Below are positions 1 through 14,896 of a stretch of DNA of 64,000 bases, in pieces (position 1 is the stretch's first letter; the number at the start of each line of letters is the position of its first letter). The notes below the pieces were generated by a model. That model was given only the letters and a program-made list of their open reading frames with translations. It searched no databases and was not told where the DNA came from. Source of the DNA: Chthoniobacter flavus (GTDB taxonomy: Bacteria; Verrucomicrobiota; Verrucomicrobiia; Chthoniobacterales; JACTMZ01); contig CAMDUL010000003.1 of assembly GCA_945878135.1 (NCBI GenBank), positions 69,972-133,971 of the forward strand, written 5' to 3'. The position numbers and the translations under genes are program-made.

Positions 1-1805
1 CCCCATTCCGGGCGGTAGAAACGTTTGAGGACGAAAACCAGCTCTTTGATGTGCTGCGGGATGGTCTCGAGCCACGCATTGTAGTCCGCGGTGAAAGCGG
101 GTGACGGCGTCAGGAGTTTGATCACCGAGCCGAGCGAACGGTCGGGGCTCAGGATGAGCCGGCGGTCGCGGCCGCGGCGGGCCGGATCGGCATACCGGCC
201 GGAGTAGTCGCGCCGGATCAACTCGTCGACGCGGTCGAAGTCGGCCTTGCAGTCGGCCACGAAAATCGGTCCCGCCAGGATGGCATCGGAAATCGGCTTC
301 GAGATCTCCGACTTGCCGCCGCCGGAGACCGTGCAGGGTTTGTGGCAAAGCGTTCCCTCGGCCATCGTGCCGATGAGTCGCCAGGCGCGTCCCGCGGGCG
401 GCTTCTCCATGTGGATCTTGTATCCGCACGGGAGCACATAGCGGTGACCGAGACGGAGCGGAAGTTCGCACGCTTCGCCGTCCTTCTCCCAACGGACCTT
501 CTGCGAGAGCAACTGGAAGCGGGCGTTCTCCGGGACGTAGCAGATATCGGGGAAAAGACGGTCGACCGCGTAACCCTCGGGCCGGACTTCGACGGTGTCC
601 CCCAGAAGTTCCATGGACTCGGCAAACCCGCGCGGCATGTCCAGCGGCAGGTCTTTCGCGGCGATCTGCTCGGCGAGGTCGTAGCTGGGGAAGATGAGCG
701 CGCCGCCCGCGTGCTCCTCCTCGGCATTGCCGAAAAGGTTGGCCGCCATGCTCAGCTGGGTTTTTACCTCCTTCTTGCAGTAGCCGAAGTAGTTGTCCGA
801 AATGACCGTCACCACGACACCGTGCTCGTCGCGCGCCGTGACCTTGAACGCCGTGCCGTCGTTGTAGAGTTCGTCCCGCGATTTCCAACACATGCCGTCG
901 CGGCGCTGGCGCTCGGTGGCCTCGTCCCATGAGGGCAGACCGAGCTCCGCTTTGGTCAGCTTGTTGAGATGCGGAGCCAAAATGACGCAACCCGTGTGGC
1001 CGGTCCAATGCTCGGTATCGAGCGCCGCGTCGTTTTCCGGGAGATTCGGATCGCCCGCGTTGCCGAAGATGCTTTCGACAAAATCCAGATTGCAAACCAG
1101 CCCGCCGGGCACGAAGAACCGCACTTCCATGCTCTTCTCGGGAGTGACTCCATGCACTTCGGGACAGACCACCGGACGGAGCAGGAGGGAAACAAAGCAC
1201 TCCGCCGGTTCCGGAAGCGTCGAAGTGAAAGGCAACCGCATCAGCTCCGGCGGCGGTTTCAGCGCCGCTTGGAGCAAACGGCCGAAAACCGCCTTGGGCA
1301 CCGCTTTTTTATCGTCGGGCACGGGCAACCCGCCCTCGGTGACATGGAATATCCCCTGCGTCGTGCGCCGGTCGCTTTTCGGATTGTGCAGCACACCCTG
1401 GCGGACCCGGTAGGAGTTGATGATATCCGAGGAAAACTCGTCGCGGTCCGGCGGCAGCGACAACTGGCGCGCCAGACCATGGCGATCGAGGACAAAGGTC
1501 TGGTTCGGCAGACGCGGCACCTCCACCTCGTCCTGCAGGTAATCGTAGAGAAAATTCTGGAGGCGCGTATCCGCCGGGCAAAGGTGCCTGGCCAGCAAGC
1601 GGTCCTTCTCGCGGTGCAGGGCCATGAGTCCGCCGAGAAGATCGGCGAACTCGGCGTCGAGTTGCACCGGAAACGTCGGGCACCCGAGATCGCGCAGCTT
1701 GAGGTTGATGTAGTAGACGCGCCGCCGCACGGCGTCCGCATCCTCCCCGCCGCCCGCCGCGCCGCGCAACGGTCCGATTTTTTTCTCCAGGAGGTCGGTG
1801 GTCAT
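1..1805 (-). CDS. Large PPi-type phosphoenolpyruvate carboxykinase-like protein (3' end cut off)
   Basis: About 601 residues are visible; the gene enters from the right and runs off the left edge, so the C-terminal part is missing. Translation from the ATG at 1803-1805 gives a soluble protein with no signal peptide. Near residue 490 is the segment TVSGGGKSEIS, which resembles the kinase-1a P-loop of PEP carboxykinases (SGTGKT-type). Other distinctive stretches are RFFVPGGL near residue 227, HWTGHTGC near 267 and FGYCKKEVKTQ near 337, which I associate with the 1,100-1,200-residue PPi-dependent PEPCK family (interconverts PEP plus phosphate plus CO2 with oxaloacetate plus PPi). This rests on recalled family features, not a search. 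The only upstream neighbour is a divergent metal-ion transporter gene, which gives no functional hint. An in-frame upstream ATG at 1814-1816 is excluded because a TGA follows within a few codons. Confidence 0.6.
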   Translation of the reverse strand, partial: MTTDLLEKKIGPLRGAAGGGEDADAVRRRVYYINLKLRDLGCPTFPVQLDAEFADLLGGLMALHREKDRLLARHLCPADTRLQNFLYDYLQDEVEVPRLPNQTFVLDRHGLARQLSLPPDRDEFSSDIINSYRVRQGVLHNPKSDRRTTQGIFHVTEGGLPVPDDKKAVPKAVFGRLLQAALKPPPELMRLPFTSTLPEPAECFVSLLLRPVVCPEVHGVTPEKSMEVRFFVPGGLVCNLDFVESIFGNAGDPNLPENDAALDTEHWTGHTGCVILAPHLNKLTKAELGLPSWDEATERQRRDGMCWKSRDELYNDGTAFKVTARDEHGVVVTVISDNYFGYCKKEVKTQLSMAANLFGNAEEEHAGGALIFPSYDLAEQIAAKDLPLDMPRGFAESMELLGDTVEVRPEGYAVDRLFPDICYVPENARFQLLSQKVRWEKDGEACELPLRLGHRYVLPCGYKIHMEKPPAGRAWRLIGTMAEGTLCHKPCTVSGGGKSEISKPISDAILAGPIFVADCKADFDRVDELIRRDYSGRYADPARRGRDRRLILSPDRSLGSVIKLLTPSPAFTADYNAWLETIPQHIKELVFVLKRFYRPEW

Positions 1806-1909: not shown

Positions 1910-2821
1910 ATGGGAGAGGAACTGCCCGCACCTTCCGCCGCCGCGGAGAAGAAATTCGCCATGGCCCTGTCCGTCGCCGCGGGCCTCGTGCTGCTCGCGC
2001 TCAAGGCCCTCGCGTGGGCTTGGACCGGTTCGACGGCGATCCTCAGCGATCTGGGCGAGAGCGCCGCGCACCTCGTGGCCGTGGGCTTCGCCGCCTACAG
2101 CCTGTGGCTGACCCTCCGCCCGGCCGATGCCAACCACCTCTACGGGCACGCCAAGGCCAGTTTCTTCTCCGCCGGATTCGAGGGCGCCGCCATCATCGCC
2201 GCGGCCGCCTACATCCTTTTCGAGGCGACGCGCGCGTTCATCCGCGGTCCGGAACTCTCGCATCTTCCGGTCGGTCTGGCTCTCACCGCGGTCACCGCCG
2301 TGCTCAACGGCGCGCTCGGACGCCATCTCGTGCGCACGGGGCGGCGGCGCGGGTCGATCATCCTCGAGGCCAACGGACACCATGTGCTAACCGATTGTTG
2401 GACCAGCCTCGGGGTTCTCGCCGCCCTCACGCTGGTCGCGCTGACCGGATGGACCTATTGGGACCCGCTTTTTGCCGTTGCCGCCGCGCTCAACATCCTC
2501 CTCTCCGGCCTCCGTCTCGTGCGGCGGAGTGTCAGCGGCCTGATGGATTCCGCCGACCCGGCCGTGCACCGCATCATCGAGGAAATCGTCTCGACCGAAA
2601 CCCGGCGCCACGGCATCAGCCACCATAACCTGCGCCACCGCAACATCGGCGATGCCCATCTGGTGGAACTTCATCTGACCTTTCCGAATGCGGTGCTCCT
2701 CCGCGACGCCCACCGCGTGGCGACGGAAGTCGAGGAGGCGCTGGAAAGGAACATCCACCCGGCGGCCCACGTCATCACTCACCTCGAGTGCGATGGAGAC
2801 CACGCAGACCGCGCGCCCTAG
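1910..2821 (+). CDS. Cation diffusion facilitator family metal transporter
   Basis: This 303-residue inner-membrane protein has the hydrophobic pattern of CDF transporters, which export divalent cations such as Zn2+, Fe2+ or Mn2+ in exchange for protons. The metal site appears as LSDLGESAAH in the second helix (Asp plus Glu in place of the usual Asp-Asp pair) and HHVLTDCWTS in the fifth helix (His and Asp). A cytoplasmic C-terminal domain of about 90 residues follows and ends in a His/Asp-rich tail. Length is normal for the family. The metal specificity cannot be read from the sequence, and the Asp-to-Glu change may shift it. The gene is divergent from the PEPCK-like gene, and its stop codon overlaps that of the next, convergent gene. 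Confidence 0.88.
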   Translation: MGEELPAPSAAAEKKFAMALSVAAGLVLLALKALAWAWTGSTAILSDLGESAAHLVAVGFAAYSLWLTLRPADANHLYGHAKASFFSAGFEGAAIIAAAAYILFEATRAFIRGPELSHLPVGLALTAVTAVLNGALGRHLVRTGRRRGSIILEANGHHVLTDCWTSLGVLAALTLVALTGWTYWDPLFAVAAALNILLSGLRLVRRSVSGLMDSADPAVHRIIEEIVSTETRRHGISHHNLRHRNIGDAHLVELHLTFPNAVLLRDAHRVATEVEEALERNIHPAAHVITHLECDGDHADRAP

Positions 2822-3372
2822 CCGCGCACCGCAAGATACTCCCGCGAGAGCCGCACGTAGCGCAGCGCCCACATCTTGATCTCGTCCTGCTCGGCTTCCG
2901 AAAGGCTGCGCACAATCTTGGCCGGCGTGCCGAGAACCAGCGAACCGGGCGGAACCTCCATGGCCTGCTTGACCGTGGCATTGGCGCCGATGATCGATCG
3001 CGTGCCGATGCGGGCACCGTCGAGGATGACCGCACCCATCCCGACGAGCACCTCGTCGGCCACCGTGCAGGCGTGCACGGTGGCCTGGTGTCCGACCGTG
3101 ACCAATTCCCCGATCACGGCCGGCAGGTCATCGGCCACGTGCACCACGGCGCCGTCCTGCACGTTGGATCGCGCCCCGAGGACGATGTGCGCCACGTCGC
3201 CGCGGAGCACCGCCCGGTGCCATACGCTGGCTTCGGGGCCGATCTCGACATTGGCCACCACGGTGGCGTCGGCAGCGATGTAGGCGTCCGGCGCGATGCG
3301 CGGCGCAGTCCGGATGTTGCGGGCGATGGTCGCGGAGAATTTCTCCATGGATCCGAACGTCTGATGGCTCAT
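2818..3372 (-). CDS. Gamma-carbonic anhydrase-like left-handed beta-helix protein
   Basis: The 184-residue protein consists of hexapeptide repeats forming a left-handed beta-helix, followed by a C-terminal alpha helix, as in the YrdA/PaaY/gamma-class carbonic anhydrase family. His residues in VVHVADD, VGHQATVHAC are placed as zinc ligands. These proteins are trimeric, cytoplasmic, and hydrate CO2 or have related but undefined roles. The start at 3372 (MSHQ) is used; an internal ATG eight codons later (MEKF) is an alternative. Its TAG stop and that of the convergent CDF transporter share one CTAG sequence, so the two genes end on top of one another. Exact substrate is unproven; enzymatic activity varies within the family. 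Confidence 0.85.
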   Translation of the reverse strand: MSHQTFGSMEKFSATIARNIRTAPRIAPDAYIAADATVVANVEIGPEASVWHRAVLRGDVAHIVLGARSNVQDGAVVHVADDLPAVIGELVTVGHQATVHACTVADEVLVGMGAVILDGARIGTRSIIGANATVKQAMEVPPGSLVLGTPAKIVRSLSEAEQDEIKMWALRYVRLSREYLAVRG

Positions 3373-3921: not shown

Positions 3922-4908
3922 ATGAAAAAAACCATCCGTGTTGCCGTAACCGGTGCCGCCGGCCAGATCGGTTATTCCATCCTCCCGCGCCTCGCCAGCG
4001 GCCAAGTCTTCGGGTTCGACCAACCGGTCATCCTCCAACTCATCGAGATCGAACCCGGCATGGCCGCCCTCCAGGGCGTGGCCATGGAACTGCAGGATGG
4101 CGCTTTCCCCCTCCTTGAGGGCATCGAGACGACAAGCGACCTCGACCGCGGTTTCGACGGCGTGAACTGGTCCCTGCTCATCGGCAGCGTGCCGCGCAAA
4201 GCGGGGATGGAGCGCAAGGAACTCCTCGGCATCAACGGGAAAATCTTCGTCGGCCAAGGCCGCGCGATCGAGAAGAACGCCGCGTCCGACGTCCGCATCC
4301 TCGTCGTCGGCAACCCGTGCAACACGAATTGCCTCATCGCCATGAACAATGCCCGGTCCATCCCGCGCGACCGCTGGTTCGCCATGATGCGGCTGGACGA
4401 GAACCGGGCCAAATCGCAACTCGCCCAGAAGGCCGGCGTCCCGTGGCGCGAGGTGACCAACATGGCCATCTGGGGCAACCACTCGAACACGCAATTCCCC
4501 GACTTCTTCAACGCCCGCATCGGCGGCCGGCCCGCACCGGATGTCATAAACGACAACGCGTGGCTCGAAGGCGACTTCATCAAGACGGTGCAGGAACGCG
4601 GCGCCGCCATCATCAAGGCGCGCGGGCTCTCTTCCGCTTTCTCCGCCGCCCACGCGGCCATCGAGACCGTGCGCAGCCTGGCCTCGGACACGCCGGAGGG
4701 CGACTGGCACAGCGTGGCCCTCTGCTCGGACGGCTCTTACGGCATCGAGGAGGGCCTGATTTGCGGGTTGCCTGTCCGGAGCAATAACCAGCAGGCCTCC
4801 ATCGTGCCGAACCTCCCGCACAACGCCTTCGCCCGCGAGCGGATCGACAAATCGGTCAACGAACTGAAGGAGGAACGCGCGATGGTCTCGGACCTCCTGC
4901 CGCAATAG
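3922..4908 (+). CDS. mdh: Malate dehydrogenase
   Basis: This 328-residue enzyme interconverts malate and oxaloacetate with NAD(H) in the TCA cycle. The N-terminal dinucleotide site is GAAGQIGY (residues about 10-17). The catalytic region includes [13 protein letters not shown] and the active-site His in [13 protein letters not shown]. Sequence and length match the subgroup of bacterial MDHs resembling the cytosolic eukaryotic enzyme. The ATG at 3922 is chosen because [11 protein letters not shown] is the expected beginning; an upstream in-frame start at 3868 would fall within the terminator region of the HU gene. It is convergent with the methyltransferase gene, with only six bases between. 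Confidence 0.95.
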
Positions 4909-10723: not shown

Positions 10724-12275
10724 CGGTTGAACCCTGACGATAGGCCCGCACGACCAGGTCGCTCAAGAACTTGTCGGGCGCCTCCACCGCTTCCCGCGGG
10801 AGGACGAGCGGACCACCCCCGGCCGGACGCTGCACCAGACGGAGCCCGAACTCGTAATCTTTGAACAGCTCCGCGCAAATGTCCCGCACCGGCTTTTGCC
10901 TGGCCACAGCCATCTCCACGAGCAAGTCGAGCGCCCCGGGTGCGAACTGCAGCACGATCCCCTGCGCCTGCCCGAGCCGTTCGATGAAATCCTGCGCACT
11001 GCGCCGCAGGATGCGCAGGCGTTCGTCCTCGCCGCTGGCGCGCAATTGGGCCAGGCGCTCCGCCGGACGCTCGATGAGGTCCAGGTCGACGCGCAGCGAG
11101 TTCACCCCCGACCCCGGCAGCTCGAATTTGAAGTCGCGGAGCAAACGCTCGCACACCGTGAGCAGGCCGCGCGCCCCGGTCCCTTCCTCCGCGGCGAGCT
11201 CCGCGATGCGGTCCAGGGCCCCCTCGTCGAAAACCGCCTCGATGCCGAAGGCGAGGAAAGCCCGCTCGTATTGACGCAAGACACTCCCCTCGGACTCGGA
11301 CAAAATTTTCCGCAGATCCCCGGCCGTCAGTTCGTCACAAGCCACCCGCACCGGAAGGCGTCCGACAAATTCCGCCTCCATCCCGTATTCGATGAGGTCG
11401 GCCGTGGTCACTTCATGCTGCCACGACGGCCCGTTAGCGGCGTCCACCGGCGCGGCGAAACCGATCTGCGCCTGCTTGCGGCGCTTTTCGACGATGTCCT
11501 TCAGCCGCGGAAACGCGCCGCTGACGATGAAAAGAATGCTGCGCGTGTTGACCGACTGGCGCCCGGGCTTGCCGCCGCGCTGCAGGTCCATGACCGCCTG
11601 CATCTGCCCCGCGAGGTCCATCGGATTGCGCAAGGGCACCTCGGTCTCCTCCATCAGCTTCAGCAACGCCGTCTGCACCCCGCGCCCGCTCACGTCACGA
11701 CCGATCATGTTGCCGGACGTGGCGATCTTGTCGATTTCGTCAATGTAGACAATCCCCTGCTCGGCCCGGGCAATATCGCCATCCGCTTTCTGCACCAACT
11801 CGCGCACAAGGTCCTCGACGTCCCCGCCCACGTAGCCCGTTTCGCTGAACTTCGTCGCATCCGCTTTGACAAAAGGCACGCCGATCAACTCCGCGATGTG
11901 CCGCACGAGGTAGGTTTTGCCCACACCCGTCGGACCGGTCACTATGACATTCTGCTTGGCGTATTCGACCGGCACCGTCTCGCCGCGGCGCTCCCGCTCG
12001 CGGAGGAATTTCGCGTGGTTGTAGTGGTCGCAGACCGCGATCGAGAGGACTTTTTTGGCCTCGTCCTGCTTGATGACAAAACGGTCGAGATGCGCTTTGA
12101 TCTCGCGCGGCGTCAGGCTGAATTCAAGGACCTCGTCCCCCGCCGCCGGCTCGTTTTCCGGCGTCCCCGAGGGTTCGGCCGCCGCAGGCCGTCCGGGTTG
12201 CTGGAACGCGGACTGGAGAAACGCCTGCAGCCGCCGCTGCAATTCGTCGGGTCCGGGCAAAGTGGGATCGCTCAT
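10695..12275 (-). CDS. ClpX-like AAA+ unfoldase without zinc-binding domain
   Basis: The 526-residue protein carries a ClpX-type AAA+ module: FVIKQDEAKKVLSIAVCDHYNH, Walker A GPTGVGKT (114-121), pore loop GYVG (147-150), Walker B VYIDEIDKIA (176-185), sensor segments and the ClpP-binding IGF tripeptide at 271-273. The N-terminal 50 residues are Pro/Ala-rich with no Cys, so the usual ClpX C4 zinc domain is absent. The RKH pore loop is also missing; instead a segment of about 25 residues (216-240) is inserted there. A C-terminal extension of roughly 110 residues follows the canonical fold. It probably unfolds selected substrates, possibly for ClpP, but specificity should differ from standard ClpX. 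The start at 12275 is the only ATG that precedes the fold closely. Confidence 0.8.
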   Translation of the reverse strand: MSDPTLPGPDELQRRLQAFLQSAFQQPGRPAAAEPSGTPENEPAAGDEVLEFSLTPREIKAHLDRFVIKQDEAKKVLSIAVCDHYNHAKFLRERERRGETVPVEYAKQNVIVTGPTGVGKTYLVRHIAELIGVPFVKADATKFSETGYVGGDVEDLVRELVQKADGDIARAEQGIVYIDEIDKIATSGNMIGRDVSGRGVQTALLKLMEETEVPLRNPMDLAGQMQAVMDLQRGGKPGRQSVNTRSILFIVSGAFPRLKDIVEKRRKQAQIGFAAPVDAANGPSWQHEVTTADLIEYGMEAEFVGRLPVRVACDELTAGDLRKILSESEGSVLRQYERAFLAFGIEAVFDEGALDRIAELAAEEGTGARGLLTVCERLLRDFKFELPGSGVNSLRVDLDLIERPAERLAQLRASGEDERLRILRRSAQDFIERLGQAQGIVLQFAPGALDLLVEMAVARQKPVRDICAELFKDYEFGLRLVQRPAGGGPLVLPREAVEAPDKFLSDLVVRAYRQGSTDEPPAGTAS

Positions 12276-12314
12276 CCCGCCATCTTAGCCGCGTCCGCCC
12301 GCCGCGCAAACCCG

Positions 12315-13946
12315 CTAACCCTCGGCCATCAGCCGCTCGGCCACCCGCCGGTAGCTCTCCCACCCGGCGACACCGGGTGCGGCGGAAATCCCAAGGAAGC
12401 GCGCGAGGAGAAGCTTGGCCTCCGCCTTGTCCCCGAGAGACCAGTCGGTCACGCCCGCGACAAAAAACACCAGCGAGCCCGGACCCTCCTGCGGGTAACG
12501 CCCGAGATCATCGAGCCTGACCGGCAATCCGCGCATGCCGAAGTCCGCCGCATCGGGAAACAAATTGGCCAGGTCACGGTCCTCCACCCGGTCGGAGTAA
12601 AGACCGGCGCGGGAAAGACTCCGCCATTGGTCGCGGGCCGCATCCCCCTCGCCCGACAAGGCCAGGGCCAGGGCGAGGTTGAATGAAGCCCATTGGGCGC
12701 GCTCGCTTCGCGGGGTGGCGGACGAGGCCACGGACCGGAAGCCGTCGCGGGCGGCGGACCAATCGCCCGCGGCCAACACGGCGAGCGCCTGGTCGAGCGG
12801 GTCGGCCGCGACCTCCTCGCGCCCGGCACCGAGCACCGCGGTGCGCAGTTCCTTGATCTCCGGGCGCTCGCTGGCCAGGAAAAGCCACACCCCCGCCGCG
12901 AGCAGGAGGATCGCGGCGGCGATGGAAATCAGGGCGGCGTAAAGCCTGGTGCGGTTGGTTTCCACTTTGACCACCTCGCGGTGCGCTCGCGGCGGGCGCC
13001 CCGCGCGCTCCAGCACCTTGGCCCGCGCGAATTCCAAGTGCTCGATCAGCTCGGCGTAGGACGGGTAGCGGTCGCCGGGATTTTTCTCGAGCATGCGGTT
13101 GACCACATAAGCCGTCTCGGGCGCGACATCGGGCGCGAAGGCCTCGAGACTGACCGGCTGGCTTTTGATCTGCTTGAGCGCCACGAGGCTCGCGTTTGCC
13201 GCCTCGAAGGGCGGACGTCCGGCGATGGCGTGGAACAAAGTTCCGCCGAGGCTGTAGATGTCGCTGCGGAAATCCTCCGGTTCGTAATTCAAGCGCTCCG
13301 GCGCGATGTAATACGGCGTGCCCCAGATTTCGCCCCGCGCCTCCGCCTCCTCCTCGAGCACGCGGGCCAGCCCGAAGTCCACGATCTTTGTGGTATGCGC
13401 GTCGGCGAAGAGAATGTTGCCCGGCTTCACGTCGCGATGGATCAGACCCTTCTCGGCCGCCGCCTCGAGTCCCTGCGCGATCTGCACGCCGATGGCGAGG
13501 GCTTGCGCTTCCGATACGCGCTCCTGCACGGACATCAGGTCGTCGAGCGATCCTTTCTCGACCAGCTCCATCGCCAGGTAAAATTGTCCGTCCGCCTCGC
13601 CGAACGAATAAACACGCACGACATGCGGGTGGTTGACCGACGCGGTGACGCGCGCCTCCTGCTCGAGTTTGGTCCGCTCGTCCTCGCGGGCGCTCATTTC
13701 GCGGCGGAGAACTTTGAGCGCGACCATGCGTCCGAGATTGTGGTCGTAGGCCTTGAACACCGACCCCATGCCGCCCTCGCCGATCAGCTCGACCAGTTCG
13801 AAGTTGTTGCACATCCGCCGCGCGCGCATCCCTTCGCCGCAATGCGGGCAGAAGATCTGCGCGAAGGGCAACTCGTCGGACACGTCGATCGCACCGCCGC
13901 AGGCGGCACACGTCTCGATGATCCGGGGAGGAAGTTCCTCGTCCAC
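12315..13946 (-). CDS. Transmembrane Ser/Thr protein kinase with N-terminal zinc ribbon
   Basis: The 543-residue protein begins with a two-CxxC zinc ribbon (C13, C16, C33, C36), then a complete Hanks-type kinase domain: glycine loop GEGGMG (56-61), Lys78, HRDVKPGN (170-177), DFG (190-192) and GTPYYIAPE (209-217). A single membrane span lies at about 335-357. The region beyond is helical and TPR-like, and by topology would be outside the cytoplasm. It likely phosphorylates cytoplasmic targets in response to envelope cues; targets are unknown. It precedes the ClpX-like gene on the same strand with a 39-base gap and may share a transcript with it. Confidence 0.9.
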   Translation of the reverse strand: MDEELPPRIIETCAACGGAIDVSDELPFAQIFCPHCGEGMRARRMCNNFELVELIGEGGMGSVFKAYDHNLGRMVALKVLRREMSAREDERTKLEQEARVTASVNHPHVVRVYSFGEADGQFYLAMELVEKGSLDDLMSVQERVSEAQALAIGVQIAQGLEAAAEKGLIHRDVKPGNILFADAHTTKIVDFGLARVLEEEAEARGEIWGTPYYIAPERLNYEPEDFRSDIYSLGGTLFHAIAGRPPFEAANASLVALKQIKSQPVSLEAFAPDVAPETAYVVNRMLEKNPGDRYPSYAELIEHLEFARAKVLERAGRPPRAHREVVKVETNRTRLYAALISIAAAILLLAAGVWLFLASERPEIKELRTAVLGAGREEVAADPLDQALAVLAAGDWSAARDGFRSVASSATPRSERAQWASFNLALALALSGEGDAARDQWRSLSRAGLYSDRVEDRDLANLFPDAADFGMRGLPVRLDDLGRYPQEGPGSLVFFVAGVTDWSLGDKAEAKLLLARFLGISAAPGVAGWESYRRVAERLMAEG

Positions 13947-13999
13947 GCGGCAAACCTTGCGCGGAGCCGCGGGAACGTCCAGCGTTTCCGCGGCCCTTC

Positions 14000-14896
14000 A
14001 TGGAAACTCCGCTCACCTCCACCGCGTCGCAACGCGCCGCGCGGCTCGACCGCTGGCTCGCGACGCAATGGCCGCAACTCAGCCGCGCCCGCTGGCAAAA
14101 AGCGCTGGCCGCCGGCCTGGTCAAATTGAACGGCACCACCGCCCGCGCGTCCGATTCCGTGGCTCCGGGCGACTGCGTCGAAGCCGTGCCGCCCCCGCCC
14201 GCGGCGCCTCCGGTGCAGGCCGTGGCCGAGGACATCCCGCTCGATATCCTCCACGAGGACGACGACCTGCTCTGCCTGAACAAGCCGCCCGGCCTCGTCG
14301 TCCATCCCGCCGCGGGTCACTGGCAAGGCACGTTGGTCAACGCCATCCTCCACCACTGCGGCCTCGTCTCCTCGGGCGGCCACGCCCTGCGACCGGGAAT
14401 CGTCCACCGCCTCGACAAGGACACCAGCGGTTGCATCCTGGTCGCGAAAAACGATGCCGCCCACGCCGCGCTCGCCCGGCAATTCGCCGAGCGCACCGCG
14501 AAAAAAACTTACCTCGCCGTGGTCCGCGGCCGCCCCCGCGCCTCGGCCGGTGCCGTCCACGGCGCCATCGCCCGCCACCCCGTGCACCGCCAACGCATGG
14601 CCGTCAGCCGCCGCCCCGGGGCCCGCGAGGCCGAGACCGCATGGCGCGTGTTGGAATCGGCGGGAAACCTCTCGCTCCTCGAGTGCCGTCCCAAAACCGG
14701 CCGCACCCACCAGATCCGCGTGCATCTGAAACATCTGGGCCATCCCATTGCCGGCGACCGGGTCTACGGCGGCGGGGCCGACTTCGCCCGCCAGCTGCTG
14801 CACGCCTGGAAAATCGCGGTCATCCACCCGACCACCGGTCTCCCCTTGGAATTGACCGCGCCCGTTCCGGCCGACTTCCCGCTGCAACCCCGTTGA
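14000..14896 (+). CDS. RluA/RluD-family pseudouridine synthase
   Basis: The 298-residue enzyme has an N-terminal S4-like RNA-binding segment (LDRWLATQWPQLSRARWQKAL) and the RluA catalytic domain with the HRLDKDTSG motif, in which Asp is the catalytic nucleophile, followed by GRTHQIRVHLKHLGHPI. It isomerises uridines in large-subunit rRNA; by resemblance RluD (23S positions 1911/1915/1917) is the closest, but RluC or a mixed specificity is possible. It is divergent from the Ser/Thr kinase gene, 53 bases away, and convergent with the rhomboid gene. Confidence 0.92.
   Translation: METPLTSTASQRAARLDRWLATQWPQLSRARWQKALAAGLVKLNGTTARASDSVAPGDCVEAVPPPPAAPPVQAVAEDIPLDILHEDDDLLCLNKPPGLVVHPAAGHWQGTLVNAILHHCGLVSSGGHALRPGIVHRLDKDTSGCILVAKNDAAHAALARQFAERTAKKTYLAVVRGRPRASAGAVHGAIARHPVHRQRMAVSRRPGAREAETAWRVLESAGNLSLLECRPKTGRTHQIRVHLKHLGHPIAGDRVYGGGADFARQLLHAWKIAVIHPTTGLPLELTAPVPADFPLQPR

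Follow-up and report, generated by a model that had tools for sequence, protein, structure and literature searches.

Gene content of the locus

The window, by which we mean the whole stretch of 64,000 nucleotides that was analysed (G000:C3:69972-133971), belongs to a genome of 2.64 Mb in 56 contigs, which is 90.7% complete and has a contamination estimate of 1.46%. At its left edge lies the N-terminal part of a gene for a PPi-type PEP carboxykinase (PPi-PEPCK), which begins with an ATG at position 1805 and reads leftwards without a stop codon to the edge (Table 1). The initial annotation had proposed this enzyme from three sequence blocks at 1-1805, with about 600 residues visible and no strand given. 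The interval was right to within two bases, the visible part has 601 codons, and all three blocks are present on the minus strand. The flanking sequence, which had been named as the way to check the proposal, is available on the same contig. There the complete gene (G000:C3:68282-71776, equal to L002:8283-11777, minus strand) forms a single uninterrupted frame of 1,164 amino acids plus stop, and the C-terminal half on which the proposal had been made to depend is present.

Table 1. Features at the left end of the window; the positions of the three motifs were calculated from residue numbers
Feature	Window position	Strand	Residues	Evidence or remark
PPi-type PEP carboxykinase, N-terminal 601 codons	3..1805	-		frame and matches to 6k31 and 8e1u
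SGGGKSEIS, P-loop-like phosphate-binding motif	300..326	-	494-502	invariant at every residue (24-sequence alignment)
HWTGHTGC block	987..1010	-	266-273	sequence
RFFVPGGL block	1098..1121	-	229-236	sequence
Cation diffusion facilitator transporter	1910..2821	+		listed as a neighbour; closest equivalog model is the manganese exporter MntE, with a score below its cut-off
Gamma-carbonic-anhydrase-like hexapeptide protein	2818-3372			between the PEPCK and MDH genes; NF050158 168 bits, below cut-off 250
Malate dehydrogenase (MDH)	3922..4908	+		neighbour; PRK05442 496.6 bits against cut-off 271; TIGR01759 450 against 345.65

The malate dehydrogenase that had been linked with the enzyme in the handling of C4 and C3 compounds is indeed nearby, at a distance of 2.1 kb, but the coupling is weaker than had been supposed. 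An operon of the two genes is ruled out by their opposite strands and by the three genes between them. Of the nine congeneric loci, six keep MDH as a neighbour, two are without it, and in the remaining one the contig stops before the position is reached. The 81 database loci L059-L139 showed no MDH in the flanking stretches that were fetched. The link is therefore positional only.

The cation diffusion facilitator (CDF) transporter gene is divergent from PPi-PEPCK in all nine congeneric loci (L140-L148). PEPCKs need divalent metals, and a metal link between the enzyme and this MntE-like protein was considered. Among the database loci L059-L139, the transporter stands beside PPi-PEPCK only in L071, which itself looks like the congener G294 (same truncation, 79% identity), and no metal link is claimed. 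A PFK-family gene directly follows or precedes PPi-PEPCK in two loci (L149:11451-12839 and L081:296-1690) and lies 1.6 kb from it in another (L068:4947-6335). The two of these PFKs that were scanned, with the motifs GGDG and PKTIDND, fall below the NCBIfam cut-offs, and no donor type is assigned to them. With 3 of 92 loci, such a neighbour was rejected as a general rule.

Family identity and fold

The visible 601 residues alone scored 679 and 670 bits against the two solved PPi-PEPCKs, far beyond chance. In the PDB sequence search, the full protein matched 6k31 (AiPEPCK) with 1,304 bits over residues 35-1156 and 8e1u (PPi-dependent PEPCK) with 1,261 bits over residues 28-1155, and these were the only two distinct PDB chains matching at E up to 10. 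The best matches are thus not in an unrelated family, which was the outcome that would have spoken against the initial annotation. The homology with 6k31, which we take to be the enzyme of Actinomyces israelii, runs from end to end, although that organism belongs to another phylum and about half of the residues differ. It is near full length with 8e1u, the PPi-dependent PEPCK of Propionibacterium freudenreichii (PEP carboxytransphosphorylase, EC 4.1.1.38) with malate, again from another phylum. As in the known PPi-type enzymes, a class of about 1,100-1,200 amino acids, the homology includes the C-terminal half. The P-loop-like GGGKSEIS (495-502) and the acidic DDI block (EDDITAS at 662) are conserved as they are in PPi-PEPCK, with G495-K503, D663, D664 and I665 invariant in 24 sequences. 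By analogy with the PEPCK fold, SGGGKSEIS would serve as the kinase P-loop.

The fold was judged from a model of L059, a relative 65% identical to the window protein, rather than from the window's own protein (37-row alignment, pLDDT 86.9). This model has the enlarged PEPCK fold, with TM 0.91-0.95 and 51-53% identity over the whole length against the two solved PPi-PEPCKs (TM 0.95 and Z 53.6 for 8e1u, Z 52.8 for 6k31). The next matches were ATP- and GTP-PEPCKs, with Z of about 15-17, about 480-520 aligned residues and 9-14% identity. The full-length matches and this fold together bear out the identity first read from the short blocks.

The model shows that PPi-PEPCK has a PEPCK core in common with the ATP- and GTP-dependent enzymes, though profiles miss it. 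The common core superposes, whereas the PPi-type chain is about twice as long and finds no sequence-profile match among them. A profile comparison with GTP-PEPCK, for which only three GTP-PEPCK sequences were supplied, gave 1.1% probability and detected no homology, so that kinship with the nucleotide-dependent PEPCKs is argued from structure alone. Judging by its title, the paper of Chiba et al. (2019) has probably already described such a structural relation. The full protein matched no family of Pfam and none of NCBIfam at E up to 10, the curated ATP-PEPCK and GTP-PEPCK families (EC 4.1.1.49 and 4.1.1.32) included. A 2020 review, in its passages on these enzymes, regards the PPi enzymes as evolutionarily unrelated to other PEPCKs and gives the PPi-dependent PEPCK no InterPro family (PMC8100219). 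The Pfam and NCBIfam copies that we searched thus have an annotation gap for PPi-PEPCK, and pipelines relying on them may therefore leave these genes unnamed. This may in turn mean that PEP and oxaloacetate metabolism is misread in Verrucomicrobiota genomes.

With no family model covering the protein, its name hangs on two solved relatives, and one could suppose that this PEPCK homologue no longer has PPi-PEPCK activity or takes its phosphate from another donor. However, the long frame without a stop, the whole-length identity of the close relative L059 to both solved enzymes, and the invariant P-loop and DDI blocks make this very improbable. We regard the window gene as almost certainly a PPi-type PEP carboxykinase (EC 4.1.1.38). 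It is an intact, ordinary member of a known enzyme family, and its use of PPi is predicted.

Distribution and inheritance

In a sample of 288 genomes drawn evenly from the phylum Verrucomicrobiota, PPi-PEPCK was patchy and occurred in 51. Twelve of the 28 nearest relatives have it, namely the genome studied here, nine of its ten congeners and two of the 17 others of the order. The congeneric genes occupy the same genomic place; eight are full length and one ends at residue 876, at the end of its contig. A scan of named genomes, for which the best 80 loci were listed and which is not a census, yielded chiefly Verrucomicrobiota, along with Bacteroidota, Pseudomonadota and members of other groups. 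In a tree of 89 rows, rooted at the midpoint and with SH-aLRT as the only support, the window protein groups with eight congeneric sequences at 100%, inside a part that is mostly Verrucomicrobiota. Gene order around PPi-PEPCK is kept in most congeneric loci, and the GC and GC3 of the gene resemble those of its neighbours. We conclude that PPi-PEPCK has been inherited vertically within the genus and is present patchily above it.

The same results bear on the possibility that the gene entered the assembly from another organism. The number of contigs and the contamination estimate would leave room for this, but the shared surroundings in the congeners, the matching base composition and the grouping in the tree already refute it as far as the data go, and its probability is negligible.

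In Planctomycetes, a PPi-type PEPCK has been annotated beside pckA and pfp (PMC7716947), and annotation of this enzyme thus already extends to a neighbouring phylum. The sole match among 72,556 plasmid records was found on CP012861.1 of Persicobacter sp. JZB09 (11118-14513, 50.6% identical). Another PPi-PEPCK lies on an IMG/VR contig (L139:820-4317), where the adjoining ORFs resemble phage tail genes by eye. It groups with Pseudomonadota in the tree, and the contig is probably host DNA flanking a prophage.

Metabolic setting and direction of the reaction

PPi-PEPCK catalyses the reaction PEP + CO2 + Pi <-> oxaloacetate + PPi. The P-loop-like motif in the PEPCK core would be expected to hold the phosphates in a metal-dependent phosphoryl transfer with carboxylation or decarboxylation. 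The genome carries, besides the PPi-type enzyme, a separate GTP-PEPCK on C14 (NF003253, 945 bits), pyruvate carboxylase on C13, PPDK on C9 (TIGR01828, 1,320 bits), pyruvate kinase and a membrane PPase (H+-PPase) on C1. Of its three PFK-family genes, one on C3 is above the cut-off of the PPi-PFK subfamily (NF010675, 470 bits against 273). With PPi-PFK, PPDK, the membrane PPase and the other genes in one genome, a PPi-linked central metabolism is plausible. Searches for PEP carboxylase and ATP-PEPCK found neither in this genome, whereas among 14 control genomes they were positive in 7 for the former and in 5 for the latter; because the assembly is 90.7% complete, PEP carboxylase could lie in a gap. 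In the set of relatives, PPi-PEPCK and PEP carboxylase occur together in 3 of the 12 genomes that have the former.

We lean slightly towards the view that the enzyme, predicted to depend on PPi, runs mostly in the carboxylating, anaplerotic direction, because no PEP carboxylase was found and GTP-PEPCK is there for the reverse step. Carboxylation would supply oxaloacetate to the TCA cycle and for aspartate, and its PPi would go to PPi-PFK, PPDK and the membrane PPase. Gluconeogenesis would be left to GTP-PEPCK, and the two carboxykinases would thus divide the labour between them. This role is not forced, because pyruvate carboxylase already supplies oxaloacetate.

The same enzyme might instead be mainly decarboxylating, turning oxaloacetate into PEP for gluconeogenesis at the expense of waste PPi. 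Pyruvate carboxylase as a maker of oxaloacetate and the MDH gene nearby are consistent with this direction, and in the relevant part of a study of methanotroph extracts the conversion of malate to PEP is credited to MDH plus PPi-PEPCK (PMC6860931). However, the same part of that study also gives PPi-PEPCK as anaplerotic, and in the present genome GTP-PEPCK is already available for the step from oxaloacetate to PEP, while PEP carboxylase was not found. We consider the decarboxylating direction credible but rather doubtful, and the carboxylating direction remains our preferred reading.

Association with a putative peptide-synthesis cluster in some relatives

In 8 of the best 80 named-genome loci (L062, L063, L073, L077, L078, L081, L115 and L125 of Methylomonas), PPi-PEPCK adjoins a cluster of transglutaminase-like, DUF2126 amidoligase, CP-ATPgrasp and Alpha-E genes; these 80 are best hits with many close relatives among them, and some of the loci end at contig ends. 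The order in L078 (5394-18622) is CP-ATPgrasp, Alpha-E, PPi-PEPCK, transglutaminase-DUF2126, CP-ATPgrasp-Alpha-E and transglutaminase. The genomes G301 (L160:1987-14911) and G308 (L166:6473-17736) have this same order, but with PEP carboxylase in the slot of PPi-PEPCK, for which neither genome has a match. The start codon of PPi-PEPCK in L078, and that of PEP carboxylase in L160, overlaps the stop codon of Alpha-E. Among the PEP carboxylase loci of the relatives, 2 of 11 are within the cluster, both from one genus.

Operons of Alpha-E, ATP-grasp and transglutaminase genes, frequently accompanied by the Anbu protease, have been described before, and their presumed task is the synthesis or modification of a peptide (PMC5666114, PMC3597751). 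No link of PEP carboxylase or PPi-PEPCK to the Alpha-E cluster was found among the open-licence papers searched. We suggest, tentatively and at a little short of an even chance, that in some relatives an enzyme converting PEP to oxaloacetate is a working part of this amidoligase/transglutaminase/Alpha-E cluster for peptide synthesis, with PPi-PEPCK and the unrelated PEP carboxylase interchangeable. The enzyme would then provide oxaloacetate-derived aspartate for the peptide. If this is true, it is a metabolic clue to the product of such clusters.

As a general rule, the association is unsupported. PPi-PEPCK was never near the cluster in the phylum sample; 38 of the genomes carry both PPi-PEPCK and CP-ATPgrasp, on the same contig in ten, where at least 34 kb separates the two. 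From that sample, CP-ATPgrasp loci were fetched for 73 of 75 genomes, one place in each and a second copy only where it was close by. None of these 73 loci contained PEP carboxylase or PPi-PEPCK, and one contained pyruvate carboxylase. CP_ATPgrasp_2 was found in 38 of the 51 genomes with PPi-PEPCK and in 37 of the 237 without, a count that includes one genome matching below the family cut-off and is uncorrected for relatedness or genome size. Where it occurs the pattern is genuine, but it is bound to lineages, and the window gene lies elsewhere, outside the cluster.

Pyruvate carboxylase also has a CP-ATPgrasp neighbour in the genome studied here (C13, L201:4226-9283), where the two genes are divergent and about 150 bases apart. 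We gave this adjacency no weight because the arrangement differs among the congeners: no CP-ATPgrasp was seen near pyruvate carboxylase in the fetched stretch of two of them (L205 and L206), and in three others (L203, L204 and L211) the gap between the two genes is about 1.9 kb.
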